Assembly: GCA_023897205.1 (NCBI GenBank)
Contig: JAHWDD010000004.1
Span: forward strand, 4,836,001-4,900,000
DNA: 64,000 nucleotides
Source of the DNA: Exophiala sp. HKRS030
Taxonomy: Eukaryota > Ascomycota > Eurotiomycetes > Chaetothyriales > Herpotrichiellaceae
Direction of reading: 5' to 3'
A program made the position numbers and the translations under genes. Position 1 is the first letter of the stretch, and every line of letters starts with the position of its first letter. Positions 16,674 to 54,579 of this stretch are shown here, piece after piece. The notes under the pieces were generated by a model that was given only the letters and a program-made list of their open reading frames with translations, searched no databases and was not told the DNA's origin.

Positions 16674-18322
16674 TTAACTTACTCGGGGAGTAGAATCTTG
16701 GATAGGCGAATCATCATCGCAGAGGAGCGATTTGACCACGTCAGAGTTGTGCTTGTTGTGACTTTTCTCAATATTATACACGATCTGTAGTGGCACCTCG
16801 AGCACAAAATCTTTGACGTGCGCACCTGATATTTTGGCCCTGAGAACCAGACTGTATTGTCGCGAGGCGACTGCGCTGCAGAAAGATGGAGGGAGATCCA
16901 TTGGTACTCTCGCGACGATCGGGACGTTTGTAAACAGGAACGCAGATGTGGGGATGTTCTTGGACTGCTGTTGGTATGATATTTGCGCGTCGGAACTCAA
17001 TCTGCGCTCACTGGAGTCCGCTCCCAAGGATGGGAAAGCTATACTCTGTACGGACCAGGACCGTATAATATGCTTGACGGGAGGCAATGGTATGACTGCG
17101 TCATAAAGTCTGTGCGGGCCATTTATGGTGAGCATAGATTGACCTGGCAGTTTCGGAAAAGGTCGCATGGAGTAGAAGGTTTTCGCACGTAACCCAAGGA
17201 CGATCTTGACCTGAATTTGGTGGAACATCGCCATTAGTCGATAGGGATCCGCTCCTGAGCGTGAATCTTCCATTTTGATGGACACGTTGGTACTGATGAT
17301 CCCTGGTGAGTTTCTGTCGCTGAAGGTAATAGCAGGAGGTTCAGCCGTGGTAAGAGTCATCCTGTATTTGTCCGATCGTAATCTGTGCAGACGACACGAA
17401 AGTGTCTGACTCTCGACAAATTCTCCCGGGAAATCCCCGGTGTCGAGCGGGGGATTGGCCGCTCTAGAGACCCAGATAGGTATCTCCTGTATAGCCGTGA
17501 TGGTCGTTGGTTCTTGATCCGCATTGTGAATTTCTGCTTGGGCGATTAGGTGGTAGCCAATATTTGGCTGTGCATAAATTTTGCCCCCAACGTCATCTTT
17601 GAGTACCGGGCCTACACAAAGTGTTGGTGGAAGTTGGAGGCATTGTTGTGGTACGTGGGTTCCTTTTGTCAACACCTGGCGAGAGATGGTAAAATCGAAC
17701 GGCACCGTCGCGTTTACACCACTTGTCTCACTGTGTAAACCCATAGGCACGTTCTCGGGGATCAAGTCCTGGTGTTGGGATAAAAACTGCCCTTTTGTTA
17801 CCGTCTTCCCTTAAAATTTCGGTAAGCAATTTCGTAATTACCTTGTACGCAGATAAAGTTGGAATTTTTGCTGCTATACCGCCTGAATCTACCTTTTTTA
17901 TGTGAATACGTGAAACACCTACTAATTCATTAGCCACTTGCTGCTCGCGGTAAGTGAGAGCCTAGGGTCAAAGTGGTCTTACCGTCCAGCCTGATTCGGG
18001 CGTGAGCTAGAGTGATTGGGTCCTTGCTTTCAATCGAAAGGGTCCCAGTAACTCGCTCGCCTGGAAGCCAGTAGTTCTGTACGGAGGTCTTGGTCATCCG
18101 TCCCGGAGCTTTGTCTTCATCCACCGTGATCTTCATTCGAACTCGGCTGGGCGAGACTTCAGCTCTCGGCAGCAAAGCATGATGTGAACCAGCTGCAGCA
18201 AACAGGTGCTGGTTCATATCTTCAATCGTGCAGTCGTTAAATATTGAAAAGAACGTCATCTTCGAGGTCCGTTTGAGCTTATTGTCGGCGAGCCTTGCTG
18301 CCGTAAGATGAGACTGAAACAA
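16674..18322 (-). CDS. Arrestin-like protein A, three exons
   Basis: Exons are 18322-17983, 17918-17842 and 17768-16674 (introns of 64 and 73 nt), giving 503 residues. A later start at 18259 (MTFFSIF) is possible. The N-terminal arrestin fold reads NYWLPGERVTGTLSIESKD, then LAHARIRLDG just before intron 1. The middle has VPFDFTIS and QQCLQLPPTL, and the C-terminal domain has RAKTFYSMRPFPKLPG, PPSFCSAVASRQYSLVLRAK and FVLEVPLQIVY. This is the layout of fungal alpha-arrestin-like proteins, which in yeast bring ubiquitin ligases to nutrient carriers. No PPxY motif was found. The stop overlaps a GTAAGT, so a further 3' exon cannot be excluded. The same two intron positions recur in proteins B and C. 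A GTGACAAAGT copy lies about 230 bp upstream. Confidence 0.8.
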
Positions 18323-18548
18323 GTAGGCGTAGCTAGGCTACCACTGTCTTGTTGACCACGACCAACTGCGGCATCGCTGGGTTGATGTGTCGACCGAAGT
18401 GTTCGCTTCGTGCAATAGAGAACTGGTATATATAAACGCGGCGGCAAGGCCAATCCTGGCTAATCCCCCAATGAGCTCTTAGAAGGGTAACACGGGGAAG
18501 GGAAGAGGTCAAATGCCAAGACTAAATCTATCCAATTGGCAGGGCTGC

Positions 18549-18558
18549 GTGACAAAGT
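18549..18558 (+). promoter_or_regulatory. Candidate operator GTGACAAAGT upstream of arrestin A
   Basis: This is one copy of the recurrent GTGACWAAGY sequence of the island. It lies 227 bp upstream of the arrestin A start in otherwise non-coding DNA. Confidence 0.5.
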
Positions 18559-19149
18559 GCCGAGACATATACGCCTAGTCAGAACAAGTTCCACTAGCTC
18601 GTGAATTCGGATCTGGAAGGCTGGATTGTTGCTTTGTAAGGTAGCTCAGGGAGACCAGGCGTACAACGAAAAGCCAGGTTTAGCCCCCAGGGAAGGTGCA
18701 GAGATTTCATAAGATGAAAGCAGCGATGCATGGCCAATACTACTAGTAACCCAGCCCACGACCAGGCCATACCAGATCCGGGATTCGAGAAGCACGCCCC
18801 AATGACATATGCTCCCGAATGGAATCGTTTGGCCTTTCACTAAACTTGAGTCACTTTTCACGCTTAGGCTGCTCAGGATTTCGCTGGTCTGACTTGCATC
18901 TGGGTCAAGTAAATCTTGCAGACAGGCTGTTCGTGTGTTTGGTCGCTGACCGGTTCAGATTTATCATGCTTTGACCATCAGCGGCGGTCTTCAACGCGCA
19001 AAAGCTTTCAACGAGCACCCTTGGTTCAGAGAGATCGTGTTATTCTGCAATTAAATACCTGGTCTGGCGCTGACCACTATCACCGAATCACACAGATGGC
19101 GCCGGACTAGGAAATATGTCGGACTCTTGAAGTTTTCTCGAACTATGAG

Positions 19150-19477
19150 AACATTCGGCATGGGACTTTGTCTCAAGTTGGATTGAACTATTCCGATGAG
19201 TTCACTTCTCAAGTTTTCTTAAACGGGAGCGGCATAAGTTAGGGGAGCGAAGCGCGCCGAAGTAATCTGGTCCTTGAAATACAAGAATTGGAAACCACGG
19301 TGGCGCAGGCTCAACTTGCCGCGGCTTCACAGTCTAAAACAAGCTCGGAAGACAGAGACAGTTAGTGCTGCGATAGCCTTGATTCGAAGACTTCGGGACA
19401 AGGTAGACGAGCTGGAAGAGCAACGTCGTCAGGAAGAGCGTCGACAGGAACAGGAGAGTCGAGTTTGCCAAACCTGA
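19150..19477 (+). pseudogene. bHLH regulator relic
   Basis: Read across two frames, the sequence gives GLNYSDEFTSQVFLKRERHK and LGERSARRSNLVLEIQELE, then, after a frame change near 19350, TVSAAIALIRRLRDKVDELE. This aligns with the bHLH proteins at 27.5 kb (KKERHKLDERARRS) and 32.6 kb (GLNYPESFVSDTFSKQRTHA). The basic region keeps the His/Glu/Arg signature, but the frame is broken by stops. It sits between arrestin A and the MFS relic. Confidence 0.65.
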
Positions 19478-20798
19478 CAAGAGAGTCTAGCGCCACTTTT
19501 GTACTTCCACGCTCTTGCTTTGCTGGATCAGAGTCCTCGACAGGGTCCTTGGCCATTTGTAATTTTATTCTCTTCTTTAATTATCATTTTTCGCAACGCA
19601 GACTGAAGATTTAGATAGTGAGGGGTGGCAGAGAGCGACAAAGGTGGTGCTTCCCGGCTGCTTGTTTGTCGCTCTGTCATGCGTACAATATCATTGGCTG
19701 GTCCGCGACTTTAGCGCAAGACCCGGACATCCTCCTAACCAGCTCCCCCCTTAGCCTCCCCCTACGAGCATATGGCTTGCTGATCGGCTTTCACGTGGAG
19801 TGCGAGATGTGCAGACACCCTGTCGAAGCATGGAAATTGACGGTCTGAATGAACGCCAGGATCCTCCACCGCGAGAGCGCCAATGAAGTTCCATTGCACG
19901 AGAGGCTACCCTGTAGGGGCTGCCTGGTCTCGTGACAGTCACATGGTCGGCAATCTACCCTGCAGAGACGAAAATCGCTGAAGCCGACCCCGTTGGTCAT
20001 CACCCCGGACTAGCTGAATCTTTCGAGACAGGATTGGATACAGAGCGACCGCCTTGGACAGAAAGGCGTCGTCTTGGCTTTGTCACTGGACCAAAAGTCA
20101 TTTGCTTTAAAACAGAGGGGTTGCTTCTTGGAGCAAGATGCGAACCCCTGGTGCATAATCTGTACCCCCCCGACTGTGTCTTGGCGTCTTGTCAAAGAAC
20201 CTGAACGACTCGGATCCTCGATCTAGTAATGGCTTCGCTCTCATGTCGCCAAGGCTGACCGTGGGGAACCTCAAACTGCCCCACATGGCTGGTCAAAATG
20301 CCTCGCCTTCTGCCATTGCAGGAAACCTACTATTTGAGTGCCCTGCTGAAGCAATAGCAACGATACCCCAGGTCATTTTACGCTTGGGCGATCCTGGTTG
20401 CACATTTAAATATTGTGGCCGCTGTATTTAAGAGAGAACGGCCGGAAACCCCAATGTGCTGGTACTTCTGGCTCCTCTCATTCTTGCTACAGGTTGCTTG
20501 GGTTCAAGCACTGGATACCCCTGTCAAATTAAGAGTTTGCAAAGACAGGTTCGGGCGACTCCACGAGCAAATGCAACCTTCCACCTTGTCAATTGTAATT
20601 TGAATGCTTCGCTCCTGGAGCACCCACTTGCGCAGTAGACGGGCTTCAACTGGCACTCGGACTCTCAGATGCACATGGAGATCAAAAGAAAAAAGTTCGA
20701 AAACTTGCCCGATGTGTGGGTATGTGTGCTAGATATAGGGAGGCTGTACTTCCGGAGCAAAAACCTTACAATCCAGCACTCTACCAACACCATCCAGC
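19478..20798. other. Intergenic with one operator-like copy
   Basis: No supported gene. The complement of GTGACAAAGC lies at 20077-20086. CACGTG occurs near 19795. The DNA upstream of the MFS fragment contains short frames without family match. Confidence 0.4.
20077..20086 (-). promoter_or_regulatory. Candidate operator GTGACAAAGC
   Basis: Reverse-strand copy of GTGACWAAGY, about 710 bp upstream of the truncated MFS gene. A nearly identical local context (CTTGGCTTTGTCACTG) occurs at about 28285 upstream of the phosphate permease, suggesting duplicated promoter DNA. Confidence 0.45.
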
Positions 20799-21404
20799 AT
20801 GCATTCACCACTGGCAACAATTAAACACAACTGGAGGGCTTTCAGTCCGCATGAGAAGCGAAACATCGTAATTTACATTATCGGTATCATGCTGTGCAAG
20901 TTTGGTCTGGAAGCATTTACCGGCTCCATCATTGCCCTGGCTACCAATCGGTACGATTACGATGCTGCCAGGCAAAATACCACGCCAATCACCTTTGAAC
21001 GCATCGGTCTTCTTACGGGTCTGAATCAATCTTTCCAGTGCGTTGGATCGATTATTATCGCTCCCTTGGTGCGGCGGTTCCCTACCAAGAACGTCTTGGC
21101 GGCTGCCATCTTCATTTTCGGACTCTTTTCCGCCATAATACTCATCGTGGATGGGAGTACTGGTGGACGCATCAAACCATCAAACTGGTCACAGACTCAT
21201 GACGAGGAGGACTTCGCTTATTACGGAGACTACAATACCGACGGCATGATTCCCATCTATTGTTTTACAGGCATAGGTTACGGAATGGTGGAGCTTATTC
21301 GAAGGATCACCCCCAGGGACATTGTGGGTGGCGACGTGGAGAAACTACGGTGCATGGATGCAAAAATATCAGAGGCTGGGTTCCGCGGTTGGAGGCTAGC
21401 CTAG
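20799..21404 (+). pseudogene. MFS transporter, C-terminally truncated
   Basis: The frame starts MHSPLATIKHNWRAFSPHEK and reads a first helix (NIVIYIIGIMLCKFGLEAF), TGSIIALATNRYDYDAA, FERIGLLTGLNQ and IIAPLVRRFPTKNVL, then GDYNTDGMIPIYCFTGIGYG, ELIRRITPRDIVGGD and KLRCMD. This is the N-terminal half of a major-facilitator protein. Homology ends at about residue 190 and the frame stops at 201, whereas full proteins have around 450 or more residues. No downstream half is present before arrestin gene B. A second, shorter copy lies at 30818-31123. The substrate is unknown. Both are probably non-functional. Confidence 0.72.
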
Positions 21405-21594
21405 ATCCTGGGGTGTGAGTGTGTCACTGGGCACGTTTGATTGGAACCTGAGCAACCATCCCCCTCTCCAAGGGCATCATGTATCAAGCGCCACCTTATG
21501 ACCGGAATGATGGGGTAATGGCGTCGTAAAATTTTGGAAAGACCTCGACAACAAACGAGCTCTCTCGTGATAACTATTTTTCGATCATATACCC

Positions 21595-23345
21595 GTGGAC
21601 TGTCTCAAGAAAATTTATCACAAGCAAAGTAACGGGGCCAAAAACAAGAGTCTCAGCACGGCATGGGCAGAGATGCCAGAACTTAGCCTTGTATTGGGCA
21701 GCAGTCCTGAGGTAAACGGGTTGAAGAAGAATGCGACTGTGGCTCTGAGTCCTGGGGATGCGGTTCATGGACGTTTAGATATCACTTGCAAGAGGAGTTT
21801 TCACGTCCGTAGGGCAAGCATCTTCCTTGAAGGTGGCCAAGAATCATCTGTTGTCGTCTTCAGTTTCAACTGACCGGTCATAGGGATTTCGAGGAATTGG
21901 ATTTCAACTGCTGTGGAAAATGAAATTTTCCTTGACATCACAAAGGCCGAACGAAAAGTACGTATCATAGACGGAGAACATTCCGGTAGAATCCATGATC
22001 TGTGTTTAGTAGTACTTACCCTCATTTCCAGTTCCTAAGTCAAACCATAGACATTCCGAATTCCGACATCTGCAACGTCGTGGTGTCAAAGGAAGGATTT
22101 CACATGTCCATACCCTTCTATTTTATCGTTTCAAAGAAGATCCCATCCTCGGATCCACAGTCACCAGAGCACTGCTTACAGCTTCCACCCTCCATCGAGC
22201 TTGGTGCCGTCATTGTTGACGAGACCGGAAAGCGATTTGCTCAGCCAAGCATATCATATGCATTGAGAGCTAAAGTTTGCTTCGCTGCCAGGACTGACGA
22301 TGAGACAATGCCACCGGTCGAGTCCTCCTTACCACTCATTCTACGGCCGCGAACAAAAGAATTTCCGCCTACCGATACTATCGACTTCCCCACAGAGTTT
22401 AAGTTACAGGTATCAAAATCTGTTCGACGGTCATTGTTTGCTCGAAACCTTGGGACTCTGACCGTGTCTATACAAGAGCCACGGCCACTCATCTACGATG
22501 CTTCTTCTATGGGTAGCCTAACGGAGTGTCATGTGGGACTTGAGCTTTTGGCCCTCGATTCGGGAGACGTTCACCAAGCCTTACAGGCAATGGAGATTTC
22601 GATACATTCGTGGGTCCGGGTCAAGACGTTCTATTCCGTCAAGTCGTTCTCTCAGCTTCCAAGTCAAACCCTCCTGAGTTCCGATGGAAAGACACGACTG
22701 CGAGACGATTTTCTCAAACTCGAGACACGGAATCTTCCTCACGTTTCGTGGAGTTACCAGTATCACTCGGTGGAATCTGGTGGTGACGACGCTAATAACG
22801 GGTCGACCACGCAACCCGATAGTGGCTCAAGTTCCTGTTCTGGACCTGCCAGTCCTTCTCAAGCACCCAGCGGAAGATGGACAGCCAGATTTACGCATCC
22901 AATCCGCGTCCAAAGCAGGGTTCTACCGACATTTTGCAGTGCTATTGTTGCACGCCTATACACCGTCATTGTCCGCCTAAAGGTTTCCGGGATCAGGAGA
23001 GAGTCGTTCAATTTAGAAATCCCTCTTCAAGTAGTCCACGCGTCCTCCAACGATGCTTCGGACGAGGAATATCCTTTCATCAGACCCCTTGAAGAAGACA
23101 GAACGTCAATGGATTTCCGGAGAGCGTCGACAACCTCTTGGTTTAGCGATGAGTCCCTCGCAAGTAGCACCCTCTTCCGAAATTTCATCCCATTAATCCT
23201 TCTCAGGATCGCGTCGATCAGCCTCCTCACTATCACCCATAAACAGCGTTGTGCAGATGCGACTCTTGCCAAGACGACTCTTTATAGAGAGTCGACTCTT
23301 TGCTCCCAGCCCTGGTGGCCGCCAGGAGTCCACAATGGCGTATGA
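21595..23345 (+). CDS. Arrestin-like protein B, three exons, 3' end fused to hAT element
   Basis: Exons are 21595-21832, 21884-21957 and 22032-23345, joining in frame to 541 residues. Intron positions match those of A and C: after FLEG and after the short second exon. Landmarks are ATVALSPGDAVHGRLDITCK, VRRASIFLEG, FLSQTIDIP, HCLQLPPSIELG, RVKTFYSVKSFSQLP, PTFCSAIVARLYTVIVRLK and FNLEIPLQVVH. The last 34 codons (from 23244) are the terminal inverted repeat of the hAT element, so the original C-terminus has been replaced. Whether the shortened protein is stable is unknown. An alternative start is MPELSLVLG. No PPxY motif is visible in the remaining part. Likely role: arrestin-type adaptor for carrier turnover, by family only. 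Confidence 0.75.
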
Positions 23346-25791
23346 GTAGATGGTAGGCAATCTCTTACCTTCTACCCATTATTCAAGTAGATTCCTTGCT
23401 GTTTCACACGTAAAATGTCTTTGCCAGCGGTTCCAAGCATCGAAAACACTATCTCGTACTCTCGACGAAGCGATGAACGTCGTATTAGAGGGGTCAACTG
23501 GCGCAGAGTCGGTCGTTAGCCAAACGTCTATAGACGTAATACTTCCTCTGTTGTCTGGGAGCATGGCGACAATTATCTCAAAGTTTCCTCGCCTGGAACA
23601 CCACCACATTGGCTTTGCGATTACTGTGACGTCGTAATCAAGCTACAGAGGAATGGTTCCACCAACAACCATAGTCGACACCTACAGACCAAGCATCACA
23701 TTGGCCTACAATCGATTGAGGCCAGTAATGACGGCGTGGACGTAGAGAACGACGAAGATTATGACCATCAAAGTCAAGCATCCTCGACTAACTCCTTACG
23801 TCCACCGTCTCAGTTCGCAGCGTTGGATACAACCATCAATATTGATCGATTCCGCCTCCTCTTCCTGCGACTCTTTATTCGGTGCCAAGTCCCATTCTCG
23901 ATTGTTGAGCGCGACGAGTTCCGAGAGCCTATACTGTATATACAACCAACGATCGAATGTTATTTGGTGGACTCACATTGTACAATAAGTCGATGGGTGG
24001 CGGAGGAATTCAAACAGGGCCAGATGGCCTTGATTAAGTTGATGGCGCAGGCAAAATCGAGGGTCCACCTAAGCTTTGATATATGGACTGCACCAACTGG
24101 CGCACCAATACTGGATATTTGTGCTCATTTCCTTGATGAAGACCTCCAGTTTCGATATCCTCTTCTGGCACTTCGATTCCTTGCGGGACACCATACTGGA
24201 GTGGCCATGGCTGAAATAATTGAAAGTGTAATGGCTCAGTTCGAAATCATCGATAAATGGGGAGTATGCGTCTCAGATAATGCCGACAATAACGACACCA
24301 CCTGCAAAGCATTAGTTGAAGCTCTCCGACCAAATGAACCCACCACAGCGAGGAGAGCAAGGTGCTCTGGCCATGAGGTGAAACAGGCCGCTAAAGCGTT
24401 CATTTATGGCAAGAGTAATGAAGGTTTCATCGCTCAAGCTGAGAGAGTGATGACTCTATCGAATCGCGACCAGATCGCAGTTCAAGAAGAGATGCAACGT
24501 TGGCGGCGGCGACGCTCATTTGGAAAGTTCCACAACGTCGTCAAGCATATCAGGAACTCACCAATTCGTCGACAGAAGTTTGAGCGATTGTTGATGGGTT
24601 TTATAAGCCCTCAGGTCGATGTTGGAGTTGCTTCAATTCAATCTGGTGTCGATGGTAAGTTATTATATAGAACTTGCGCAACTTGACGAAATCTATCGAG
24701 AGGAGTCTTCAACTGAAACTTGACAACGTAACTCGGTGGAACTCAGCCTTTATTTCTTATACAACGTGGCCTGAGACTAAAAGAGGCTCTCGTTGCTTAC
24801 TTAGCAACTGAGTCAGAGCTCTCGGAACTCGATAAACTTGACGATGACGACTGGGCGCAGTTGCAAGCCATCTACCATGGACTGAAGCCTTTTTGGGAGA
24901 TCACTGAACGCCTACAGAGTTATGCCACATCAGGCTCTCATGGAGTCGTTTGGGAGGTCCTCCCAGGCCTTGAGATGCTCCTCAGTCATGTTGAAACTAA
25001 GAGAGATGAACTTACTCTACAACAGCAAGTTCCACAACCTCAGCGACGTCGCCGCACTAATGCTCCTCCTCGTCCTACAGACGAACAATCGCTCAGTCCA
25101 AGTCCGCTGCTGGTGTGTTATCAAAATACTTGGGAAGTCCTTAATAAATATAATAACTTGACAGACAATAATCACGAGATCTATGCCCTGGCCACCCTCC
25201 TTAATCCCTGCCTGAAAAAGCAATATTTTATCGCGTCCTGGACAAATACTGCCGCAGACCAGATTCAGCCTATGCTTGCAAAGAACAAGGGTATCTGGGA
25301 GTCTATCTACGGCCAAAATGTGCCTACGCCAGTCTCTGAGATAGCTAGGTCATCATTATCGGTATATATGGCCAACATGAGTGCATCTATAGCCAGTTAC
25401 ATCAAAATGACGACTTCGCGCAGTATATCAACACCATGCTTGTTGCTTCCCTGGCCTTCGTCAGTTAGCGTTTGATGCTCTATCAGTGCCTGCAATGTCA
25501 ACTGAACTTGAGAGAGTCTTCAGTCAGGCCAAGAGGTTCTATACAGACGATCGCAATTATACAGACGATCGCAATCGTCTGTATACTGACTCTTTTGAAG
25601 CTTTACAATGTCTAAAGCAATGGTCGCAGCAAAAAGTCTATGACATCATGGATGCGGAGCGGATGAACGATACCCCAGCCAATGGGAGAGCTCTGTTTGC
25701 TTAGTAAGGAGTCGACTCGGGAGTCGACTCCTAGCAATATCGAGAAAAGACTAGGAGTCGGACTGGTGGGAGTCGCATCTGCACAACGCTG
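23244..25791 (+). mobile_element. hAT-type DNA transposon, 2.55 kb, 22-bp terminal inverted repeats
   Basis: The left end CAGCGTTGTGCAGATGCGAC (plus TC) is repeated as its exact complement at the right end. Subterminal GAGTCGACTC palindromes occur near both ends, as is common in hAT elements. The interior encodes a BED-finger and hAT-dimerisation protein. The flanks CCCATAAA and GTAAAACA do not form a clear 8-bp target duplication, so the insertion may be old or the ends rearranged. It lies in the 3' end of arrestin gene B. Confidence 0.85.
23580..25704 (+). pseudogene. hAT transposase, probably defective
   Basis: The frame from about 23580 carries a BED-type finger (PPHWLCDYCDVV, then NNHSRHLQTKHH). 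A long frame to about 24650 follows with VHLSFDIWTAPTGAPILDIC and VCVSDNADNNDTTCKAL (RNase H-like part), then a possible GTAAGT intron. The next part (24861-25475) contains YHGLKPFWEITERLQS and ALATLLNPCLKK. The dimerisation end LRQLAFDALSVPAMSTELER lies in another frame with a shift near 25450. An 18-bp direct duplication (ACAGACGATCGCAATYRT unit) repeats TDDRN inside this end. No start codon is certain. It is probably no longer active. Confidence 0.75.
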
Positions 25792-33351: not shown

Positions 33352-33418
33352 CAGAGAATTCGTGCGAGGCAAAAAGGAGGTGTGTAGAGGAAATACATGA
33401 GCGAATAGGACCTTATCG

Positions 33419-38170: not shown

Positions 38171-38453
38171 AGCCTCTGCTCGGGGGTGTGGCAAGCACGC
38201 AGGTTATATTAGATTAGATATTCACATAGAAAAGCACTAGGACTAAGGCAACGGCTGCCAGAGCGGGCTTTAAGATTAGTGCTGCATTCGTCAAGCAGCA
38301 GTACGTAGCTTATGATTTTTGTACAATCACTTTTAACCTCCCAGAAATGACAGGTTTTTTACGACAACAGGAGACCAATTCACACTCTACTAAATTCTAG
38401 GAAACAGATTGCGCACGCTTCGATGACACCCAAGAAAGATGCCAAGCAACCTC

Positions 38454-43075: not shown

Positions 43076-44541
43076 GGGAATAGAAAATAAAGGAACAGCC
43101 GGGCTTTCACTTCACAGGAGCGCCTTTTCCTTAGGGAAGGGATGAATGCAAAGTCTGTCCGAGTGTGCAATCATGCCTATGATCAGACAGCGTCCGTGAA
43201 TGGAGGCTACTATAAGAGTCAAGGGTCTGCACCCTCGAAAGGGTTTCAGCCCGAATGGAGCTGGAGGCAGCTGATGGATGCCAGCCCATGCGGGCTGAAC
43301 AGGATCCGCCGAAAGGCGAGAAATCAGTATGCCGAGGGATCCTGCCTTGGTTTGAATGAGATGCTATTTGGTGTGTCAGCGCCTCCATCTAATTGGTACT
43401 GACTGCGTAAATTGTGAACATCCCATGCCGGATTCCAGCAGAAGTCGACCCCAAGGCATGTGTCGTGCGACACTGTGCCGGACTCGCTTCGTGAAAGCGA
43501 GCTATGAGAGACCTGGCAAGGGTTATTGGCAAATGATTTTCGTAGCAAACCGAGCGATACTCCTTTTGTCTGAGAGGGGAGGGAGCGTTTTCGCGAAGCA
43601 ATCAGGTGCCAGTAGTGACAAACTCTTAACCACGGCCTAGAACACACCCCGTAATAATGTGGCTGTCGCTAACTATTGACCAATATGCTTCTACACTCTA
43701 CGGCGTGAAGGCAGGGTATCCCCTTCCCAAAATACTCAGCAATTATTCGGACCTGATTGCACCTGATGTTCAAGGGCTTATCGTTATAGGATCAGGGTGC
43801 TAAAGGTGCACTATTCATGAGCTCGAGACATTTGTGCAAAAGGCCGATTGCGTGCCGCTCCGGCCTCAAATCTCCTATTACATAGTTTTGCGCTAAACCC
43901 CACTCATACTTTCGGTCCTTTGTCATTGCTTGCTATTGATTGGCTTCAGTCCATGACCACTTGGAAGAAGCTCCACCAAGGCTAAGCGCCAAGAAAATTA
44001 GCGGGAGCTTCTGGTGCTTGTTGAACTATAACATCAGTAGCGAGATGTGACCTGGCTAGTATTGTGCTTGCCAAGACACTTGGACTTGGATGCTGTCATT
44101 TGCTACCTGGACACATGTAAAACCCGTTAATGGATGGGAATTGATTTTAGGATCGTCCACAGTCGTTGACGGCCACCGGAGCAGTATCATGTCAATGGGA
44201 GGTTTACAATGCATAGGTAGTATTCTGTTTTAGCGATCGAGCCATTTAGCTTCCATGGATTTCGTGTTAACGTTTTCTGCGCCGCCACCGAAAGGGCGAT
44301 AACTATCACTGGAAATGATTGGCTTTGGCTGGTCTTCTACATCCTCACACGTATGGATCGTCGTGGTTGCATCCACGTGCGCACATCATTGGTATGGACT
44401 CAATGAGGAAGTCAACAAAATTTTATCGTTGTGGCCGTCATTGTCTTATATATCTCAAGATGCCCTTGTTCTTGACCCTCAACCGCTTTTTATCCTGCAG
44501 AATTCTTTATCTTCCAGTGAAGCTGAAACAAGCTTTTCATA
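43076..44541. other. Long intergenic region before PHO84-type gene
   Basis: No supported gene. Motif variants are GTGACAAACT at 43615-43624 and the complement of ATGACAAAGG at 43917-43926. CACGTG is at 44374-44379. The DNA at 43140-43640 has several overlapping short frames that I consider chance. Confidence 0.4.
44374..44379. promoter_or_regulatory. E-box CACGTG upstream of PHO84-type gene
   Basis: CCACGTGCGC, 163 bp before the ATG. CACGTG is the PHO4/NUC-1 target in promoters of phosphate permeases, so the position fits starvation control. Confidence 0.5.
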
Positions 44542-46300
44542 ATGGATTTAAATACCCTCCCTACCAAGGAAGCGGTCATCAAGGACGCCGCTCCCAATCC
44601 TCATGCTTCCAGATTGAGTGTACACGATCAAAGACGCAAGTCTTTGGCGGAGGTAGACAGCGCTCCCGTGGGTCTGTCGCATCTGCGGATTGTTCTTGTC
44701 GCTGGCACTGGCTTCTTTACCGATGCCTACGACCTTTTCAGCGCAAACTTCATCACAGCACTCATTGGGCTGGTATATTTTCCGGGACACAAGATTCCTA
44801 CATCTGCCGATACCGCGATCAAGCTTTCAACAACGGCAGGTGCTGTCATTGGCCAAGTCTTCTTTGGATGGCTTGCAGATAAATTGGGAAGAAAGAAAAT
44901 GTATGGCCTCGAATTGATCATAATGTTGGTCGGCACATTTGGTCAAACAATATCAGGTCGTGGCCCTGGGGTTTCCTTCTTAGGACCCTTGATATTTTGG
45001 AGGGTTGTAATGGGTGTTGGTGTTGGGGGAGACTATCCTCTTTCTTCAGTCATCACTTCGGAATTCGCAACCGTAAAATGGCGCGGGGCGTTGATGAACG
45101 CCGTATTTGCAATGTAAGAACTCGAAGAATTGCAGGCGGAGACAGTTTGCTAATACCAAAGCTGCAGGCAAGGATTCGGAAATCTGGCGGCGGCGCTGGT
45201 TTCTTTTATTTGCGTTGTCGCTTCGAAGGACGCCTTGTTACCGGCCGCCACAGCTGCGCAGTGCGACGAGCGATGCCAGCTCGCCGCCGACAAGATGTGG
45301 CGCAGTATTGTCGCCTTCGGCACAGTCCCAGCTCTTTTGGCGGTGTACTTCCGCTTGACAATCCCAGAAACACCACGGTATACCGCAGATATCACCATGG
45401 ACGTGGAGAAGGCCCGGGCAGATGCTGAGGCATACCTCCGCGGTAAGAGACAGGGGAAGGCGGAGGAAAGCCATACTTATGCCGCCGAGACCCGCAGGAA
45501 AAATGCAACGCCAAAGGCCACCTGGTCTGAATTCTTTGCGCACTTTCGGCAATGGCGCCATGGGAAGATCTTGCTTGGGACAGCGGGGTCATGGTTCTTC
45601 ATCGACGTCGCCTTCTGGGGCTTAGGCTTGAACAATTCTGCTATCCTAGGCGCAATAGGATATGCCAGCTCCAAAAACGTCTACGACAACTTGTACAACA
45701 CCGCTGTTGGCAATTTGATTCTCGCTGTCGCTGGTAACATACCGGGATACTGGGTTTCAGTTGCACTCATCGACACTATCGGCCGCAAACCCATTCAAAT
45801 GGCCAGCTTCATTATTCTCACAATCTTGTTCTGCATCATCGGATTTGCTTACCATTCATTATCAGCGCATTCTCTTCTGGCGTTGTACGTTCTCTGCCAA
45901 TTCTTTTCCAACTTCGGAGCGAATTCCACAACATTTATTGGTAAGTTGAAGAGCGAGGTCCTACAGTTTAGCGCTAACAGATTCAGTCCCTGGCGAAGTG
46001 TATCCTACACGTTTCCGCTCAACAGCGCACGGTATTTCGGCTGGTGCCGGAAAAGTTGGCGCTGTGCTTGCCCAAGCATTGATTGGACCGTTAAGGAACA
46101 AGACTGGAACCAACAAGTGGTTGAATCACGTCATGGAAATTTTCGCTCTTTTCATGCTCTGTGGAATTTTCACAACGCTGCTCATTCCAGAGACAAAACG
46201 CCGAACGTTAGAGGAACTGGCAGAGACATATCACGGAGATAATGAAAGCATGACTGTGTCGACGCAAACCGAGCAAGAAGTCACCACAAAGGTCAAATGA
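44542..46300 (+). CDS. PHO84-type inorganic phosphate/H+ symporter
   Basis: Exons 44542-45113, 45168-45940 and 45987-46300 join to 552 residues. Family landmarks of the phosphate:H+ symporter group of MFS are present: GTGFFTDAYDLFSANFIT near residue 55, DKLGRKKMYG, GVGVGGDYPLSSVITSEFA around 155, IPETPRYT, DVAFWGLGLNNSAILGAIGY, NFGANSTTFIVPGEVYPTRF and HGISAGAGKVGAVLAQ. It should import phosphate across the plasma membrane and, like its relatives, may also admit arsenate. The N-terminal region is charged and the C-terminal tail (EQEVTTKVK) is Lys-containing, possible sites for ubiquitin. Arrestin C lies upstream on the other strand. Intact. Confidence 0.92.
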
Positions 46301-46774: not shown

Positions 46775-47550
46775 TAGAAATTGGCTGCGTTATCGAGCCA
46801 GGCATTGACCAGCATAAGAATGATCGGAAATTGGATGACCAGCTCTTTCGTCAGAATAATCGTCTTGTCTCGGTCAGTGAAGCTTTGCTAGCTTGCCCTC
46901 GGATACGGTTAAGCCTTTGTCATGGCTGAAGCACAGACAGCTGGACAGGCCCGCCCTCTTTTCAAAAATTTTACGTTTTCGTTCTCCATTGGTGAAGTAT
47001 GCGAAGATTAGATATAGGTTGTTTACCAGTATGTAAAGCGGCCCCTCATAACGCATCCTTTTAGTTGACGGTTGTTCTAGCAGATGATTCTTGCACGTTG
47101 TTCTAATGCTTGCGCGAATCGGCAGAAGCCTTGTAACCTGAAGGACGTCACGATCGCTCATAACTCAGCGTGTTCAACTACCAGCTATAACAGTCAAAAT
47201 TGATAATATCGACGCTTCAACGCGTCTTCAGCACAAACTCGCAAGATGGCAGCTAATAAGGAATAGCACCAATCACCCGATGCTATCACTCGGCAAGATT
47301 TGCACGAGCGCCTACAGAGAGACCACAAGCCTGGCGTGGACTTTCTGCTGGTCGATCTCCGAAAGGCAGACTATCAGGTAAGAGCACATTCCGTTCCGAG
47401 GAAGCCGACTCAGCTCTGACGGATCAAAGGGTGGGACGGTCAAGGGGTCGCTGGCTCCCAACTCTGCTGAACATCTGCCAGCATGCCAGCATTAAATCGG
47501 TGATTTTCTACTGTGGTGAGCAGTATCTTGCTAACTTCTAGATGATCTAG
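46775..47550 (+). repeat. Segmental duplication, right copy (partner 36815-37673)
   Basis: Degenerate copy of the left arsenate-reductase block with several internal deletions. The copy ends where the ATPase relic begins. Confidence 0.85.
47106..47550 (+). pseudogene. Third arsenate reductase, relic
   Basis: Starts MLARIGRSLVT then stops. Later DNA matches the left gene: CACAAGCCTGGCGTGGACTT encodes the GVDF-type segment, and ICQHASIKSVIFYCG is still readable at the end. GAATGG has become GAATAG, and about 25 bases are missing after it. Exon 3 is absent. Non-functional. Confidence 0.8.
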
Positions 47551-48824
47551 AGTCGTCGGGGATCGATGGTTGAATAAGCGAATGTCTGATTCTAATTGTA
47601 GCGATGATCGCACGTCTACGCCTGTTGAGGGGATAGTGGTAGACCTGCATGCATTTCGGGAGATTCTGGAACAACTCCAACACCTGGGGGCTCTCTTCCG
47701 GTGCAGTCGTTATTTCTGTAGAGCTAGAATCTTGGGTCACTCTCGGCCCAAGCTCCTGTTCTGGTTTGGTGGTCATTCCAAGGCTGGACACTGACTGCCC
47801 AGATGCTTTGGACACTGGATGCTTGTTGCTCCTCACCATCGTCATGATTATAGAGAGCATGGCGTCTTGATCAGCTATGTCCGTGGGAAAGATCAACTCT
47901 TGCACAACTTCGAGGCTCGGCTCAGTGAGGTTTCCTGTCTTGCCAAAGACCATATCGGTGACTTTGAAGCCGCGGTGGATGATATCTGCATTTTTGATGA
48001 TCACGCCTCCACGAGCAGCCACCCCTCTAGCGACCACCGAGTACCATCGGAACTGCCAATCCCAGCGCAACAGGGACAACTGGTGGCCAGAACAGCGACA
48101 CAATAGTTTATGGTCGGTTCCGATGGCGTCGCCGGCAGATTGTTCTCGAACCTTCGGACCAACCAAGACCCAAATCACCGAAGACAATGAGAGCTACCGA
48201 TTCTGTCCCCGTATTGAAGTGATGCGCATCAATCTCAATGACTCGGCCTATGGTCTGGTCGATGAGCATAGCTATCGACGCTTGCAGAGACCTCAACGAC
48301 ACCGCCTTCACTGCTCTTTTGCGAGCCCGAGCCACAAGAAGTCGACCAAGCAGGATCAAGGTGATCAGCAGTGTACTTGTTTCGAAGAAAGGTTTGGTAT
48401 CTAGGTCACTGCCGGCGAAGAAGAGACCTGTAATGCTGATGACCACAAGCATATCCATTTCCACGACTTTGTTGTATATCAAGGACGATATGGCAGGAAT
48501 GTAGAACTCCGGGACGGCAATTGCTTGAACCATCGTGGCGAGGATTACGGCAATTATGAAAGTGGTATGCTCGGAAACGCCAGAAGGACTTCTGCATTCG
48601 AGTACGACCGGCGCTGTTGGGATGAAGGCCCCGGTGGTCAAAACAAAGACTCGCATGAGCCTGCGCTTTCCTTCGTCAAGATAGGAGTCGCTGCGGACAG
48701 GTCCAAGTTGAGCGTCGATGCCAACGAGCATGTCTCTGGCACCAATGATGCACGGGTCATAGCTGATCTCGTACATTGTCTTGGAAAGCTTCTCTAATTC
48801 AGTGACTGAGAGAATTTCCTTCAC
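47531..48824 (-). pseudogene. Heavy-metal (P1B) P-type ATPase relic
   Basis: Two overlapping frames, 48824-48108 and 48187-47531. The first has YEISYDPCIIGARDMLVGID, TGAFIPTAPVVLEC and PFFETSTLLITLILLGRLLV, typical of Cu/Cd-type ATPases (yeast Ccc2, Pca1 relatives). The transmembrane CPC metal site reads V-P-V in VVPVALGLAVPMVL. The phosphorylation motif DKTGTLT reads GKTGNLT, so the catalytic Asp is lost. The nucleotide-binding half beyond about 47560 is missing or unrelated. It is dead as a pump. Confidence 0.82.
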
Positions 48825-49259
48825 ACATCATTCAAACTCAGATCAACCACATCAAACCTTCGCAAAGCACTAGGATCCTATGACATGACTTGTTCTTGCA
48901 TCTCCAACAGCGCACTAGCAGCGCATCAAACAACTACCCGTTTGCGACAGTCTTCGTGTCACGCATCTCCTTTGCTCCAGATTCAGTAGTAAATCGGAAG
49001 TATCCACCTGAGACAAAAGTGATGCCATAGGCAGTCTGCCATTCTTTGCCACTGTACAACTTATGTCATTCAGTGTGACACAAGCAAAAAGAGGGCGGCA
49101 GTAGCAACGGCTCCCACGCGGGGGCTATCTTTGCCAATGACAAGCCCTCGGTGACAAAGCCAATATATTACGTAGTGGCCACTTCCACCTAACACTTTCA
49201 TCTTCAGACTTTACGGCCTTTTCTTGCCCTCCCATCTTTTCTTCGCATTTGACATCAGC
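48825..49259. other. Promoter region of arsenate reductase 2
   Basis: Contains GTGACAAAGC at 49151-49160 and TTACGTA at 49168-49174, a bZIP-like site also seen at 51007-51013. No gene. Confidence 0.5.
49151..49160 (+). promoter_or_regulatory. Candidate operator GTGACAAAGC upstream of arsenate reductase 2
   Basis: Copy of GTGACWAAGY 109 bp before the ATG, followed by CAA. The acr3 promoter copy at 54570 has the same GTGAC-W-AAGCCAA context. Confidence 0.6.
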
Positions 49260-49857
49260 ATGTCCAAACTCCCAGCATGGCACGAAGCCTACCCGCCGCC
49301 GCGAAATAAAAACCCTTTGACGATCGAACGACAAGATCTACTGAACGAACTACAAAGAGGCAAAAAGTCAGGCATTGACTTTCTTCTCGTCGATTTACGC
49401 AGGACTGATCATGAGGTATTTGAGAAAATCAATTGATCATTTCTTCATCGAGTCCAGAGCCCGCTTAATTCTGGACAGGGTGGCACAATCAAAGGATCCA
49501 TCAACCTCCCGGCGCAAAGTCTGTACCCTAGCTTACCTACGTTACTGGACTTATGTCAAGCCGCTGGTGTGAAGCGGGTGATCTGGTACTGTGGTAAGCT
49601 CTTGACATGGAAAGGGAAAACCATAGTTAATTGACCCATCGTGTTTTGTTTCGACAATAGGTTCTTCGAGAGGACGTGGAAATCGTGCCGCAGGCTGGTT
49701 TGATGATCTTATCAAGGATCGAAACATTGAGGAAATTAGCAGCATTGTCCTCACTGATGGTGTCGCAGGTTGGGCAAATGCCGGAGAAGACTACGTCTCT
49801 CTTATGGAAGAATACAAAGTCGATGCTTGGGGCTCTCCAAAGCAAGAAGGAAAATAG
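49260..49857 (+). CDS. Arsenate reductase 2 (Acr2/rhodanese-like)
   Basis: Exons 49260-49415, 49479-49593 and 49661-49857 join to 155 residues. It reads MSKLPAWHEAYPPPRNKNP, GIDFLLVDLRRTDHE, GTIKGSINLPAQSLYPSL, WYCGSSRGRGNRAAGWFDDL, and VAGWANAGEDYVSLMEEY at the end. The Cys-x5-Arg catalytic loop is C-GSSRG-R. It lacks the N-terminal extension of copy 1 and is probably cytosolic. It should convert arsenate to arsenite for export by the neighbouring Acr3. The frame is intact. The gene converges with the bZIP gene, and a GTGACAAAGC site lies 109 bp upstream. Confidence 0.9.
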
Positions 49858-50061: not shown

Positions 50062-50970
50062 TTAAGCCTTATCCATGAGTTCGAAGACCGAAATATTCGG
50101 CACCCTACAGCTTTGCTTGGCTCTACAGCCAAGTTCACTCCACATATCGTCATCGACATTGCAGCCGCGTAGACTCGCAATTATCTTCGCGGCCTCCACG
50201 CACGATGTTTCCCCAGCGTGAGCATCGGCTCGCGTCTCAGACGGAGAGGAACCTCCAGCAGTCTTCCTGTTGGATGGAGAATGATGAGGATAAGAGGGCT
50301 CCTGTTCATGGCGATTATCATATTCTTCGAGTTCCACGGGAGACGCCTCTTCGAAAACCATCCAGGTCACAGCGTGAGGTAATTCAACATGTGACTCAGC
50401 GTGTACAGACTGTGACGAGTCTGTGTCTGGTGGTGGGGGAATAACAGACGTCCATTCGCACTCAGGTGATTGCGATGCTGCTACAAGGACTGGCGGTGGC
50501 TCTTCATCCGTCCTCACTGATCCTATTACGGTAGGCTCCTGGCTCTCTTTCGTGCTGACCACCTCCTCAGGTCTGACTGGAAATATCTGGCTTGACACCT
50601 CAGGTCTGGCTGGAAATATCTGACTTGACACGGATTCCTTGGACCTTGTAGATGCATAATCTTCATCCACATTCCGGTGAAACCTGTGTGTGCAAACATC
50701 CGTAGCGCAGATACTTCCAGCAAGATATTCGTTCAATTGGGAGTCGCTGACACCAAACTGCGTTCTGAGCAGCAATCGCAGGAGCCGGTTCTCGTTGTCC
50801 ACGCGCTGAGCTGCAATTTGGACTTCTTTCGTTGCCCGAACTCCATCGTTGTCTAGTTGCTGCAGACGCTGCTCCAATTCTTGGATATATGCTTGACGCC
50901 GGGCGCGAAAATTGCGCTGGTTAACACGATTTCTGTCGGTTGCTTGTCGCTGGAACGAGTCCTTGGACAA
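50062..50970 (-). CDS. bZIP regulator of the arsenic core (5' end unresolved)
   Basis: About 302 residues are readable. The frame has no ATG before the bZIP: position 50970 is TTG, and the frame extends further up as PSGPVAHLS, so a first exon must lie in about 50985-51240. The basic region is RQATDRNRVNQRNFRARRQA, followed by a zipper (YIQELEQRLQQLDND). A direct repeat VSSQIFPARPE/VSSQIFPVRPE lies in the middle. Cys residues occur at about 88 and 93 (C-ATDV-C), and several occur in the last 50 residues, ending SCRVPNISVFELMD. Yeast Yap8 binds arsenite through Cys, so this is a plausible As(III)-sensing activator. It is divergent from arsH and convergent with arsenate reductase 2. Confidence 0.75.
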   Translation of the reverse strand: MSKDSFQRQATDRNRVNQRNFRARRQAYIQELEQRLQQLDNDGVRATKEVQIAAQRVDNENRLLRLLLRTQFGVSDSQLNEYLAGSICATDVCTHRFHRNVDEDYASTRSKESVSSQIFPARPEVSSQIFPVRPEEVVSTKESQEPTVIGSVRTDEEPPPVLVAASQSPECEWTSVIPPPPDTDSSQSVHAESHVELPHAVTWMVFEEASPVELEEYDNRHEQEPSYPHHSPSNRKTAGGSSPSETRADAHAGETSCVEAAKIIASLRGCNVDDDMWSELGCRAKQSCRVPNISVFELMDKA

Positions 50971-51006
50971 ATGAGCAACCGGACCTGAAGGCTTGAGAGA
51001 TGGATA

Positions 51007-51517: not shown

Positions 51518-52503
51518 ATGACGGCCGCTACCACGCTTGAAGATCATTCTACTTCTTGCAAACCGCAGGATCCCATGCCTCCGAATCTCAAAACCCCGTC
51601 AATGAATGGAGACCTTAATAATACAGCATCCATGAGGGTGGTCCTCAAACCTCAGCGTCATCCAGATTTTGCATTTCGATCACTTGCTATACCGGCATCT
51701 ATTGACCATTCTACGCTTCGCTCGAGATACCGACCTTTTCTTCTTCCCGACAAAATCCAATGCGATGACTGGGTCAGCAGACTGGAACTCGCAACTGTGA
51801 CTGAAATGGCGTACAATGACTTCAAAATAACAGGCGAGAGGATAAAGGTTTTGATTTTATATGGGAGCCTGCGTCAGAGGTAAGACAGTCTTTCTGGACG
51901 TATCAGTATATTGTGTACTAATTGCATAGATCCTACTCGAAATTATTGGCCTTCGAAATCTCTCGCATCCTGTGGCGGCTTGGGTGTGATGTACGTGTCT
52001 ATGATCCTCAGGGCCTACCTGTCAAAGACGATGAACAGCACAACCATCCAAAAGTACAGGAGCTACGAGAGCTCAGTCGCTGGAGCGATGGACATTTCTG
52101 GGTGTCTCCGGAGCAACATGGCAATTTGACTGCCGTGTTCAAGAACCAAATCGACTGGATTCCTCTCAGTACAGGGTCGGTACGGCCAACACAAGGACGG
52201 ACCTTGGGACTGGCGATGGTCTCCGGTGGCTCTCAGTCATTCAACACGATTAACAGCCTTCGCATCTTGGGCAGATGGATGAGGATGTTCACGATCCCAA
52301 ATCAATCGTCAGTTCCGCAGGCTTACACTTTGTTTACGGATAAGGATGCTGAAGAAGGCGGATCGAGATTGATGGCAGGAGGCAATCGAGATCGGCTGGT
52401 CGATTGCGCTGAGGAATTTGTGAAATACACCGTCATTATGCGGCCGCACTTTGCCTTGTTGAGTGATCGTTTCAGCGAACGGGACGCTTTTGTAAAGAAC
52501 TGA
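51518..52503 (+). CDS. arsH: ArsH, NADPH-dependent FMN-type flavoprotein
   Basis: Exons 51518-51879 and 51930-52503 join to 311 residues. The FMN phosphate loop reads YGSLRQRSYSKLLAFE (split by the intron), followed by YDPQGLPVKDD, ELRELSRWSDGHFWVSPEQH and AVFKNQIDWIPLSTGSVRPT with QGRTL, all typical of ArsH. ArsH proteins are NADPH:FMN oxidoreductases that in bacteria oxidise trivalent organoarsenicals and help resist arsenic and oxidative stress. The N-terminal 75 residues are variable and Ser/Pro-rich. The C-terminus MRPHFALLSDRFSERD is the part that survives in the relic at 38 kb. Intact. It is divergent from the bZIP gene and convergent with acr3. Confidence 0.92.
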
Positions 52504-53048
52504 ACTAGAGCAAAAGTCCCTACGCGCTAAGATACATGAGCAGCAGCTGGAATCGCTCATAGATTGAATTTTTGCTTAGAATGAAATCAGATTCTGGTGT
52601 TCATAGACGAATAGACTTCCCAATAAGAGAAATCGCCTGGCGAACCGCGATTGAAAGAAACACGAACCATGTCGTCGCCGAAAAGAAGAGATGCCAAAGC
52701 TCTTACCCAACCTCACTTGTCTACAACAAAGGCGGGATTGAGTGGAAATTCGTCCCGAAACGTAGGCTCAAGTTTCGCAATTTCTTGAAGGGATGGTGTC
52801 CAGAATAGTGTGGTATAGTCCTCACGGAAATCGGATGGCACCAAAAAAAGGCTAGTTTTTGATGAATGGAGCGAGCGCATTTTGCTCTACCGAACACAGC
52901 CTCGACAGGCATTCTAATTCTAACCCCGAAGTACCGAGGCATCGGAACACTTTTTCTAAAGGTCATCAACCTCCTCTAGTCTTGATAGGTAATCTGAAAC
53001 TTGAATAAAAACGGATGCTTCAAGGCTGGGATCAAAGTTACCATGCCA
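52504..53048. other. 3' region between arsH and acr3
   Basis: The two genes converge here. Only unrecognised short frames were seen. Confidence 0.45.
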
Positions 53049-54381
53049 TCAATCCCTCCAATTCCAACGGCCGGCAATCCATCTCACGACATAGACCAAT
53101 GAAATCAGAACTGGAACCTCAATCAAGGGCCCAACAGTGGTTGCGAGTGCCTCATCGCTGTTGGCTCCGAATGTAGCTACCGCCACAGCGATAGCAAGCT
53201 CAAAATTGTTGCTGGCCGCAGTGAAGCTCTGAGTAGCCGCAAGTTTGTAGCCAAATCCGAGGCGTTTCGTGACCAGAAGGGTCAGAAAGAAAATGATGAT
53301 AAAGTATACAACAAGTGGAGCAGCAACCCGGACCACAGAAACAATTTGGTGGATAACTTGCTTTCCCTGCGAAGCGAACAGAACCAGAATCGTGTAAAGA
53401 AGTCCCAGGAGTGACCAGGGAGCAATCCACTTCAGGAATTTCTGCTCGTACCAGATGGCGTTGATGGCCCGGAGGATAAAGCGAGTAGCAATCGCAGCTC
53501 CAAGAGGTATCCCAAGGAAGACTCCGACGCTCCGTGCGACGGTAGAGTAGGAAACTTGGGAGGCTCCGCCGCCACTGATGACGTTGACAAAGAGAATAGC
53601 GAGGGGTGCGTAGAGGATCATTTGGAGGATAGAGTTGACGGCCACAAGAATAGCGCAATATTCCTCATCGCCCCCAGCAAGCCCTGTCCAGATAAGTACC
53701 TATGATGTACTCGGTCAGTCCACGTGCAATAATAATATCACAAGCTTGGGTGGGCTTACCATGGCAATACAGCGTGCCAACCCAACGAATATCAGTCCAT
53801 TCCTGAGTTCAGGTTTATCAGGTAGGAAAGCCCATGCCAACCCAAGCTCCACCGACGTCAGTAAATTGAGTGAGGAAGGGTTCGCAGAGCGAAAAATACC
53901 ATGACAAGAGGTGCAACAATCCAATTGACCAAAATGCTGAAGCCGAGCTGGATCCAAATTTGCCGATGGGCAAAAATGCGATGCAAGGTCTCATATCTGA
54001 CTTTGCATAGAATTGGATACATCATCACTAGCAGACCCACGGCTACACGGTAGACATTCTCATTAGCTTCGAATATAGAAGGGGGACGGGTTTGTCTCAA
54101 CTCTTACCAATGGGGACCGAGACGTCAACGAATTTGCCCTTCTGAAGAGCCGGGCCGATGCCGTGAACGAAATTGCCCAGCAGAATGCCCACGATGATTG
54201 CTAACAAGATCCAGATGACGAGCAATCGGTCTAACCAGCCCAGGCCAGCATATACCGATTGCTTCTGATTGACCTGTTCTCTCTTCTGTTGTGTTTCGAT
54301 ATCGCCGTTGAGGGCAACTGGTGGGGGTTCGGAAGGACTGTGATCGAGCCCAATATCTTTGTCTTCTGGAGAGTTCGCCAT
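53049..54381 (-). CDS. acr3: Acr3 arsenite efflux transporter, four exons
   Basis: Exons 54381-54108, 54042-53900, 53846-53760 and 53699-53049 join to 384 residues. The start MANSPEDKDIG was chosen by comparison with the relic copy; the frame is open further upstream to 54459. Conserved parts are SVYAGLGWLDRLLV, VGLLVMMYPILCKVRYETL, LPDKPELRNGLIFVGLARCI (with the conserved Cys), LAGGDEEYCAILVAVNS and GYKLAATQSFTAASNNFELA. About ten membrane helices are expected, with a charged N-terminal tail. Acr3 expels arsenite across the plasma membrane. It is the final step after arsenate reduction. A GTGACTAAGC site lies 189 bp upstream. Intact. Confidence 0.93.
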
Positions 54382-54569
54382 TCTGAGGTGCGCAAAGAAG
54401 TAGTCGAAACCCGTCTCACTGGTTACTGACTTTGGAATTTTTGAATGAACAGGATGCAAGACGGCAAGCCAAGGAGACTTCCTTTATGCTTCGTCAAGAC
54501 CGTTCCTCGCCGTGTCCTGAAAAACGTTGTTGATTGGTGCTAATATTTTCAGCGAATTGAAATATGCGA

Positions 54570-54579
54570 GTGACTAAGC
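54570..54579 (+). promoter_or_regulatory. Candidate operator GTGACTAAGC upstream of acr3
   Basis: Copy of GTGACWAAGY, 189 bp before the acr3 start, with the same following CA as the arsenate reductase 2 copy. Confidence 0.6.

Follow-up and report, generated by a model that had tools for sequence, protein, structure and literature searches.

An arsenic-resistance island of Exophiala sp. HKRS030 that also holds phosphate importers and PHO-type regulatory genes

Contig C4 of the Exophiala sp. HKRS030 assembly (59.8 Mb in 50 contigs) contains an arsenic-resistance island in which ars genes stand together with open phosphate importers, an arrestin with a PPxY motif, a further PHO80-like cyclin and the DNA-binding module of a PHO4-type factor. 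The window analysed, to which all positions without a contig name refer, is the stretch of 64,000 nucleotides at C4:4836001-4900000. About 38 kb of it hold a PHO89-type and a PHO84-type importer, a PHO80-like cyclin, PHO4-type basic helix-loop-helix (bHLH) genes, three arrestins and a membrane RING protein, in addition to two readable arsenate reductases, a bZIP factor, arsH and acr3. All these gene types had been named in an earlier note on this DNA, and profile searches, splice models and reading frames place them where that note had put them. The same 38 kb also contain elements that it does not mention, namely broken acr3, arsC and arsH copies, a piece of a PCA1-type ATPase gene and a weak third bHLH remnant.

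The idea of an island would fail if these genes were the sole housekeeping copies or were not inherited together. The former does not hold, since PHO80-, PHO4- and PHO84-type genes have further copies in the genome (C9:1.59M, C1:2.08M and C10:1.27M, respectively), and joint inheritance is supported by a second island on contig C32 and by PHO84-arsH remnants lying behind captain genes of Starship-type elements. The interpretation given in the earlier note, namely that the island adjusts phosphate and arsenate uptake while detoxifying arsenate, is thus partly supported.

Arsenic genes and phosphate importers

The arsenic genes form a compact cluster of the fungal type, with the order arsC-bZIP-arsH-acr3 within 5.2 kb (49.2-54.4 kb). 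Specifically, a readable arsenate reductase (copy C, 49260-49857, plus strand), whose splice model with an exact first intron is open, adjoins a bZIP factor (50062-51006, minus strand) recognised by a profile match of 24.2 bits, below the cut-off of 27.6; both have copies on C32. They are followed by arsH (51575-52503, plus strand), assigned to the FMN reductase family by its FMN_red match and present on C18 in a 92% identical copy, and by the arsenite efflux transporter gene acr3 (copy B, 53049-54381, minus strand), an SBF match with open exon frames, one intron boundary of which was set by eye. The other readable reductase, copy A, was resolved by a splice model at 37177-37884 (plus strand). 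Pfam gave no match on the first exons of the readable ArsC copies, whose family was assigned from the sequence, and we take copy A to be of the ACR2/CDC25-rhodanese type. The broken copies comprise an arsH remnant (37979-38180, plus strand), a frameshift-broken acr3 (copy A, 38454-39763, minus strand), a truncated arsC remnant (copy B, 46776-47547, plus strand) and a fragment of a PCA1-type P-ATPase (47531-48827, minus strand; PF24534). In view of these second pieces, part of the island is a worn internal duplication, with about 76% DNA identity. A search for TTAATAATNA, which we take to be a Yap8-type site, returned 0 matches.

The two importers belong to different families. The PHO89-type (PiT) phosphate transporter (28560-30278, plus strand) is encoded by one open exon of 572 aa that matches PF01384 over both halves (E 3e-116) and a single PDB chain, 6l85; the genome has several PHO89-type genes, with paralogues at C5:4.59M and C5:4.72M. 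A 164-bp direct repeat (27214-27376 and 30660-30823), with 95.7% identity closer than the other duplications, flanks the gene. The PHO84-type H+/phosphate symporter (44542-46300, plus strand) has two introns and three exons (44542-45113, 45168-45940 and 45987-46300), its frame being open when the second intron is set, from the candidate introns, to 45941-45986. Comparison with PDB 7sp5 (E 4e-96) shows homology to the PHO84 family, pocket residues included except at one position, and another PHO84-type gene, at C10:1.27M, is 68% and 48% identical in two exons. Both island copies of PHO84 (window and C32) read DVAFW, with Y in place of the W in the C10 paralogue and in 7sp5, and F in the 9b47 chain; this Tyr-to-Trp position presumably corresponds to the phosphate-contacting residue of the PiPT pocket (Tyr328).

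The arrestin/PHO84 pair and the PHO-type regulators

An arrestin gene on the minus strand and PHO84 on the plus strand form a divergent pair that occurs three times, once in the window (41.5/44.5 kb) and twice on C32 (335/338 kb and 349.5/352.5 kb). Each of the three intergenic stretches contains exactly one CACGTG E-box. In the window this E-box (44374-44379) lies in the promoter common to arrestin and PHO84, and the start codon of PHO84 follows 162 bp further on. The second C32 copy has the same distance of 162 bp. For the first, no clear start codon of PHO84 can be given; an ATG 158 bp beyond the E-box is out of the main frame. In the three-way alignment of these stretches (1208 ungapped columns, 33% identical) the longest identical run is the 10-bp ATCCACGTGC, which contains CACGTG, and an identical run of 10 anywhere was obtained in 25 of 2000 column shuffles. 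No CACGTG is present in the examined stretches of C18, C6, C3 and C32:445-455k or of the PHO84 loci on C10.

The arrestin of the window pair, alpha-arrestin 3 (41513-43075, minus strand), has three exons with short introns and encodes 484 aa with a C-terminal PPPKYM, that is, the PPxY motif of alpha-arrestins for Rsp5/NEDD4 ligases. A search of 5.8 billion proteins, which scored the 7993 candidates with the most words in common, returned at least 19 relatives, the named ones belonging to Exophiala xenobiotica (88%), two Cladophialophora (60%), E. dermatitidis (54%) and the lichen fungus Xylographa parallela (31%). For the E. dermatitidis arrestin and one Acr3 of that species the longest contigs agree in length (3,672,342), which points at most to a common chromosome. 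Among the matches listed the family looks rare, and a C-terminal PPxY is found in 11 of the 12 close relatives, the window's own among them, and in 0 of 7 distant relatives (some of these sequences stop early). In P0121, a relative with 88% identity, Arrestin_N (PF00339) scores 25.0 bits (cut-off 24.9), and the first five PDB matches of the P0121 model in Foldseek are ARRD-6, VPS26 (two), TXNIP and visual arrestin (E 6e-10 to 4e-8), which suggests an arrestin-type fold. The closest relatives of the PPxY-type arrestins are scattered (E. xenobiotica, 88%, for the window; E. dermatitidis, 84%, for the first C32 copy; a metagenome protein, 83%, for the second), whereas the core PHO80 of this fungus is only 72% and 64% identical to those of E. 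xenobiotica and E. dermatitidis, a pattern that would fit horizontal movement of these arrestins. Two other arrestin-like genes, 1 (16674-18337, minus strand) and 2 (21574-23345, plus strand), are 39% and 34% identical to arrestin 3, and no PPxY was seen in them by eye. Arrestin 1 was considered as the housekeeping Rgp1 and rejected, the match being below cut-off and the gene related instead to the island arrestins.

To speak of a private copy of the phosphate-control system, as the earlier note did, is too strong: the cyclin is diverged and bHLH 2 corresponds to the DNA-binding end only. The PHO80-like cyclin (40459-41235, plus strand) matches PF08613 with 105.5 bits, and Pho80 is its only PDB match at E 0.001 (4e-27), in keeping with a PHO80-type cyclin box. 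It is a diverged second copy; the core PHO80, at C9:1.59M, is over 389 aa 99.7% identical to Pho80p of Knufia peltigerae and 90% to that of Rhinocladiella similis. The residue conservation of PHO80 is not retained in the window cyclin, which keeps 79 of 114 near-invariant columns (at least 95% conserved in 119 PHO80 homologues), compared with 113 in the core copy and 100 in the lowest of the 119 homologues. Its placement by FastTree was not used, the branch being too long. Two close paralogues of another Pho80-family cyclin lie on one contig, at C1:4.99M and C1:6.61M. PHO81 and PHO85 were not noticed in the window, no search aimed at either having been made.

The gene termed bHLH 2 (32560-33048, minus strand), of PHO4/NUC-1 type, is a 162-codon frame with a PF00010 match; its copy on C32 is 61% identical. 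The core gene, as we call a longer gene of PHO4 type at C1:2.08M, has PHO4 as its best PDB match, and bHLH 2 shares with it the bHLH and the preceding block characteristic of PHO4/NUC-1 (31% identity, E 4e-18). The PHO4 assignment rests on this core gene, because in the PDB ranking of bHLH 2 itself Myc (2e-7) scores above PHO4 (7.5e-4), which counts against it. Two N-terminal frames, of 159 and 317 residues, are present in the core gene, whose two nearer frames, taken as coding, contain 10 Ser-Pro dipeptides. In bHLH 2 the N-terminal region and the Ser-Pro sites for PHO80-PHO85 are lacking, with no matching N-terminal frame in 1.5 kb upstream and 0 Ser-Pro, a short first exon being possible. 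The short bHLH 1 (27483-27791, minus strand; PF00010) has PHO4 1a0a as its only PDB match up to E 1 (E 1.1e-4), and a weak third bHLH remnant (19238-19477, plus strand; E 0.007) carries one stop in the matched stretch C4:4855120-4855314. On the 5′ side of bHLH 2, a 49-bp stretch (33394-33442) shares 92% identity with C32:333816-333864; within it lies TGACTAA, presumably a Yap1-type site.

Further copies, selection and Starship context

The second island, at C32:332.9-353.1k, has matches to the bHLH, arrestin, PHO84, bZIP, a TPR piece, arsC and acr3 of the window, and to the beginning of the RING gene with the sequence that precedes it. It also contains another arrestin and a piece of PHO84 exon 1, but nothing that matches cyclin, PHO89 or arsH. 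The TPR repeat stretches common to both islands lie at 33791-34232 in the window and at C32:345.3-345.7k. PHO84, Acr3 and ArsH are under purifying selection. In particular, exon 2 of PHO84 in the window and at C32:338.6k is 93% identical in protein, with a synonymous divergence (dS) of 1.24 and a ratio of nonsynonymous to synonymous divergence (dN/dS) of 0.03, and the other exons give dN/dS of 0.04-0.08 (dS range 1.0-1.3). Between the window and C18 the ratio is 0.04 for Acr3 and 0.02 for ArsH. For arsC dN/dS is 0.07-0.18, and for bZIP 0.25-0.28. The set covers pairs with computable dS, hence not those of Acr3 with C32, Acr3 with C3, PHO89 and the cyclin, and the pair of ArsH with C7 (8 codons) was dropped. 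The gene for the membrane RING-H2 protein (35598-36338, plus strand) has a 73% identical copy at C5:4.738M, near captain genes, and a stop-ridden one at C32:449k. On C18 the ars cluster has the order arsH-acr3-arsC, with no match to the window's phosphate genes within the 10 kb examined.

At least 36 PF11917 captain matches are present in the genome and none on C4. A DUF3435 captain at the window end was looked for and not found, as the whole contig has no captain match, and we do not claim the window itself as a Starship. At C6:0.2-5.0k and C3:7347.0-7351.9k a captain, a PHO84-type gene and arsH follow in that order, the two loci being 81% identical; the C3 copy has a bias like that of repeat-induced point mutation (GC content 0.376, TA/AT 1.38), which the window lacks (0.70). 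Other captain loci stand with arsH on C13, around PHO89 and RING on C5 and with an acr3 remnant on C26, and C32:446-454k holds remnants of arsH, RING and PHO84 with no captain match nearby. At C5:4741660-4744444, beside the RING copy, a captain-like frame adjoins a 542-codon frame with what we take to be chromodomain-like sequence.

Outside the window, members of the island's gene families and captain genes are paired across families within 25 kb 29 times, against a random mean of 1.1 and a maximum of 7 in 2000 placements; pairs with captains number 9 (0.59 expected) and ars-phosphate pairs 9 (0.26 expected). These pairs are not independent, because duplicated segments were counted more than once. 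For this test, the exon matches of one gene were merged, weak matches were dropped and coordinates were set on one 59.8 Mb line; outside the window it kept 3 of 19 RING matches and 3 of 15 cyclin matches, the 36 captains merged to 19 loci, and 8 PHO84 loci plus one known only from the comparison of the window with C32.

Within the window, a transposase-like gene in pieces (23520-25704, plus strand), presumably of hAT type, lies between arrestin 2 and bHLH 1, its match to the BED zinc finger being below cut-off. Part of a gene resembling the major facilitator superfamily (MFS) is found in inverted copies (81%) at 20778-21058 and 30864-31145, apparently as fragments.

Possible functions and known systems

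From gene anatomy and passages on yeast, we tentatively propose that the island works as an arsenate-entry switch. Arrestin 3, the cyclin and the bHLH 2 module, a kind of mini-PHO4, would restrain arsenate-permeable uptake; the island's own importers would maintain the supply of phosphate; and the arsenic that enters would be cleared by ArsC, ArsH and Acr3. Passages of PMC11050377 state that in yeast arsenate enters mainly through Pho84, that turnover of Acr3 involves Rsp5 with Art3 and Art4, and that Pho84 interacts with Rsp5, its degradation under arsenicals being called 'ambiguous'. The arrestin may recruit an Rsp5-type ligase, its presumed client being the paired importer, with Acr3 as the alternative. 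The bHLH 2 module, without an N-terminus, could compete with the core PHO4 homologue, the spare cyclin may still bind the PHO85 kinase, and the Tyr-to-Trp change in the island PHO84 importer could alter arsenate handling. In yeast, overexpression of TUL1, a Golgi RING ligase, is stated to give resistance to arsenate, As(V) (passages of PMC9055376), by which no likeness to the island RING is implied. An unlikely extension is a mobile, self-contained importer swap, in which, on arsenate, host entry would be shut, through the mini-PHO4 competing for CACGTG, the spare cyclin and the PPxY arrestin internalising the importer, and replaced by the pocket-altered island importer during detoxification. 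If true, such an island would parallel in a eukaryote the phosphate-arsenic islands of bacteria, with giant transposons as its means of spread.

Several observations weigh against the entry switch. The same source reports that yeast deletions of pho84, pho87 and pho89 are As(V)-resistant, so that extra importers would help only if regulated or selective; that As(V) causes no visible change in Pho84-GFP localisation; and that PHO86 overexpression gives more surface Pho84 and nevertheless As(V) resistance (passages of PMC9055376). Candida albicans pho4 mutants are arsenate-sensitive (PMC4324303), which disagrees with a simple PHO4 brake. In the genome, the regulators evolve faster (dN/dS 0.40 for bHLH 2, 0.39 for RING against C5 and 0.25-0.30 for the arrestin), the cyclin has no match on C32, and the best 120 of 279 relatives of the cyclin include none above 62% identity besides the window's own. 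The C32 island is decaying, with one in-frame stop in PHO84 exon 1 and both arrestins broken by stops that cannot all be placed in introns, unlike the genes listed as open in the window, which are not decaying. The P0121 structure model is weak, with a predicted local distance difference test (pLDDT) of 58.5 and a predicted template modelling score (pTM) of 0.46, and the TM-scores of its Foldseek matches are low (0.2-0.35). Finally, neither CACGTG (12 against 13.0 expected) nor Pho4 sites as a whole (two site counts, 12 and 15, against 13.0 and 12.5) are enriched in the window, and only the conserved promoter site is therefore counted as evidence.

It is equally possible that the island is a mere neighbourhood of cargo, in which Starship-type elements piled up separate ars and phosphate genes by insertion, duplication and decay, with no joint function. 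Captains adjoining PHO84 and arsH (C6, C3), arsH (C13), PHO89 and RING (C5) and an acr3 remnant (C26) are in line with this, as are the broken copies, transposase-like gene and MFS fragments inside the window, the C5 locus, where PHO89 and RING occur together but neither acr3 nor arsH is matched, and the C18 ars genes, near which the window's phosphate genes find no match over the 10 kb mentioned above. Such a history accounts less well for the arrestin/PHO84 pair, whose order, orientation and E-box are kept in three diverged copies, and for the strong purifying selection on PHO84, acr3 and arsH, though this holds for each gene alone.

Supply of phosphate without any brake is a somewhat unlikely explanation: importers driven by PHO4-type factors would let phosphate outcompete arsenate in a phosphate-starved cell, and the short bHLH proteins would be unregulated activators or partners. 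This reading agrees with the role that has been proposed for the phosphate genes of bacterial arsenic islands. The E-box before PHO84 and the C. albicans and surface-Pho84 results cited above point this way, as does the explanation given for the pst and phn genes of bacterial arsenic islands, which would safeguard the phosphorus supply in the presence of arsenic (passages of PMC3834237); against it, PHO80 turns the PHO pathway off (passages of PMC4324303), arrestin adaptors promote transporter degradation (passages of PMC11050377), and no activation region is visible in the bHLH module. An arrestin whose client is Acr3, tuning efflux as yeast Art3/Art4 do, would agree with the other readings but is quite unlikely. 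Besides the degradation of Acr3 through Art3, Art4 and Rsp5 already cited, acr3 adjoins the arrestin on C32 and is near it in the window, but in all three copies the arrestin has its intergenic stretch in common with PHO84, not with acr3.

Fungal ars clusters include ARR1/ARR2/ARR3 of yeast and the arsC-acr3-arsH clusters of filamentous fungi. The island resembles them in the arsenate reductase, Acr3, ArsH and bZIP found within 5.2 kb of the window, and in the arsH-acr3-arsC of C18; it differs by the addition of two importers, a PPxY arrestin, a PHO80-like cyclin, PHO4-type bHLH genes and a RING protein, and in that part of this added set recurs at other arsenic loci of the same genome. A literature search through titles and abstract openings, with few subscription journals, found no phosphate-control genes inside a fungal arsenic cluster. 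With the yeast ART alpha-arrestins the island arrestin has in common a predicted arrestin-type fold, a C-terminal PPxY and a gene that adjoins a transporter gene; unlike them, it has at least 19 relatives, the named ones in four Chaetothyriales and one distant lichen fungus, and it pairs with one importer gene. Divergently paired with a PHO84-type importer in arsenic loci, it offers a candidate adaptor-client pair, which is of interest as passages of PMC11050377 describe the degradation of Pho84-type importers under arsenic as unresolved in yeast.

Arsenic cargo in Starships (PMC11623301) and bacterial arsenic islands with phosphate genes (PMC3834237) have already been published. Hephaestus of Paecilomyces variotii carries arsenic resistance as mobile cargo, to which the captains beside PHO84, arsH, PHO89 and RING in this genome are comparable, whereas contig C4 has no captain match; the main text of the Hephaestus paper (PMC11623301) never uses the word 'phosphate'. 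The bacterial islands, of 5-71 kb, link arsenic genes to phosphate uptake and response genes (Li et al. 2013, passages of PMC3834237), but they are aioBA arsenite-oxidase islands with bacterial transporters, whereas the parts of the window are of eukaryotic type, so that the likeness is one of gene logic only. The pairing of arrestin and importer in arsenic loci would also point to fungi joining phosphate control to arsenic resistance, as bacteria do, and to giant transposons possibly carrying regulators in addition to pumps.

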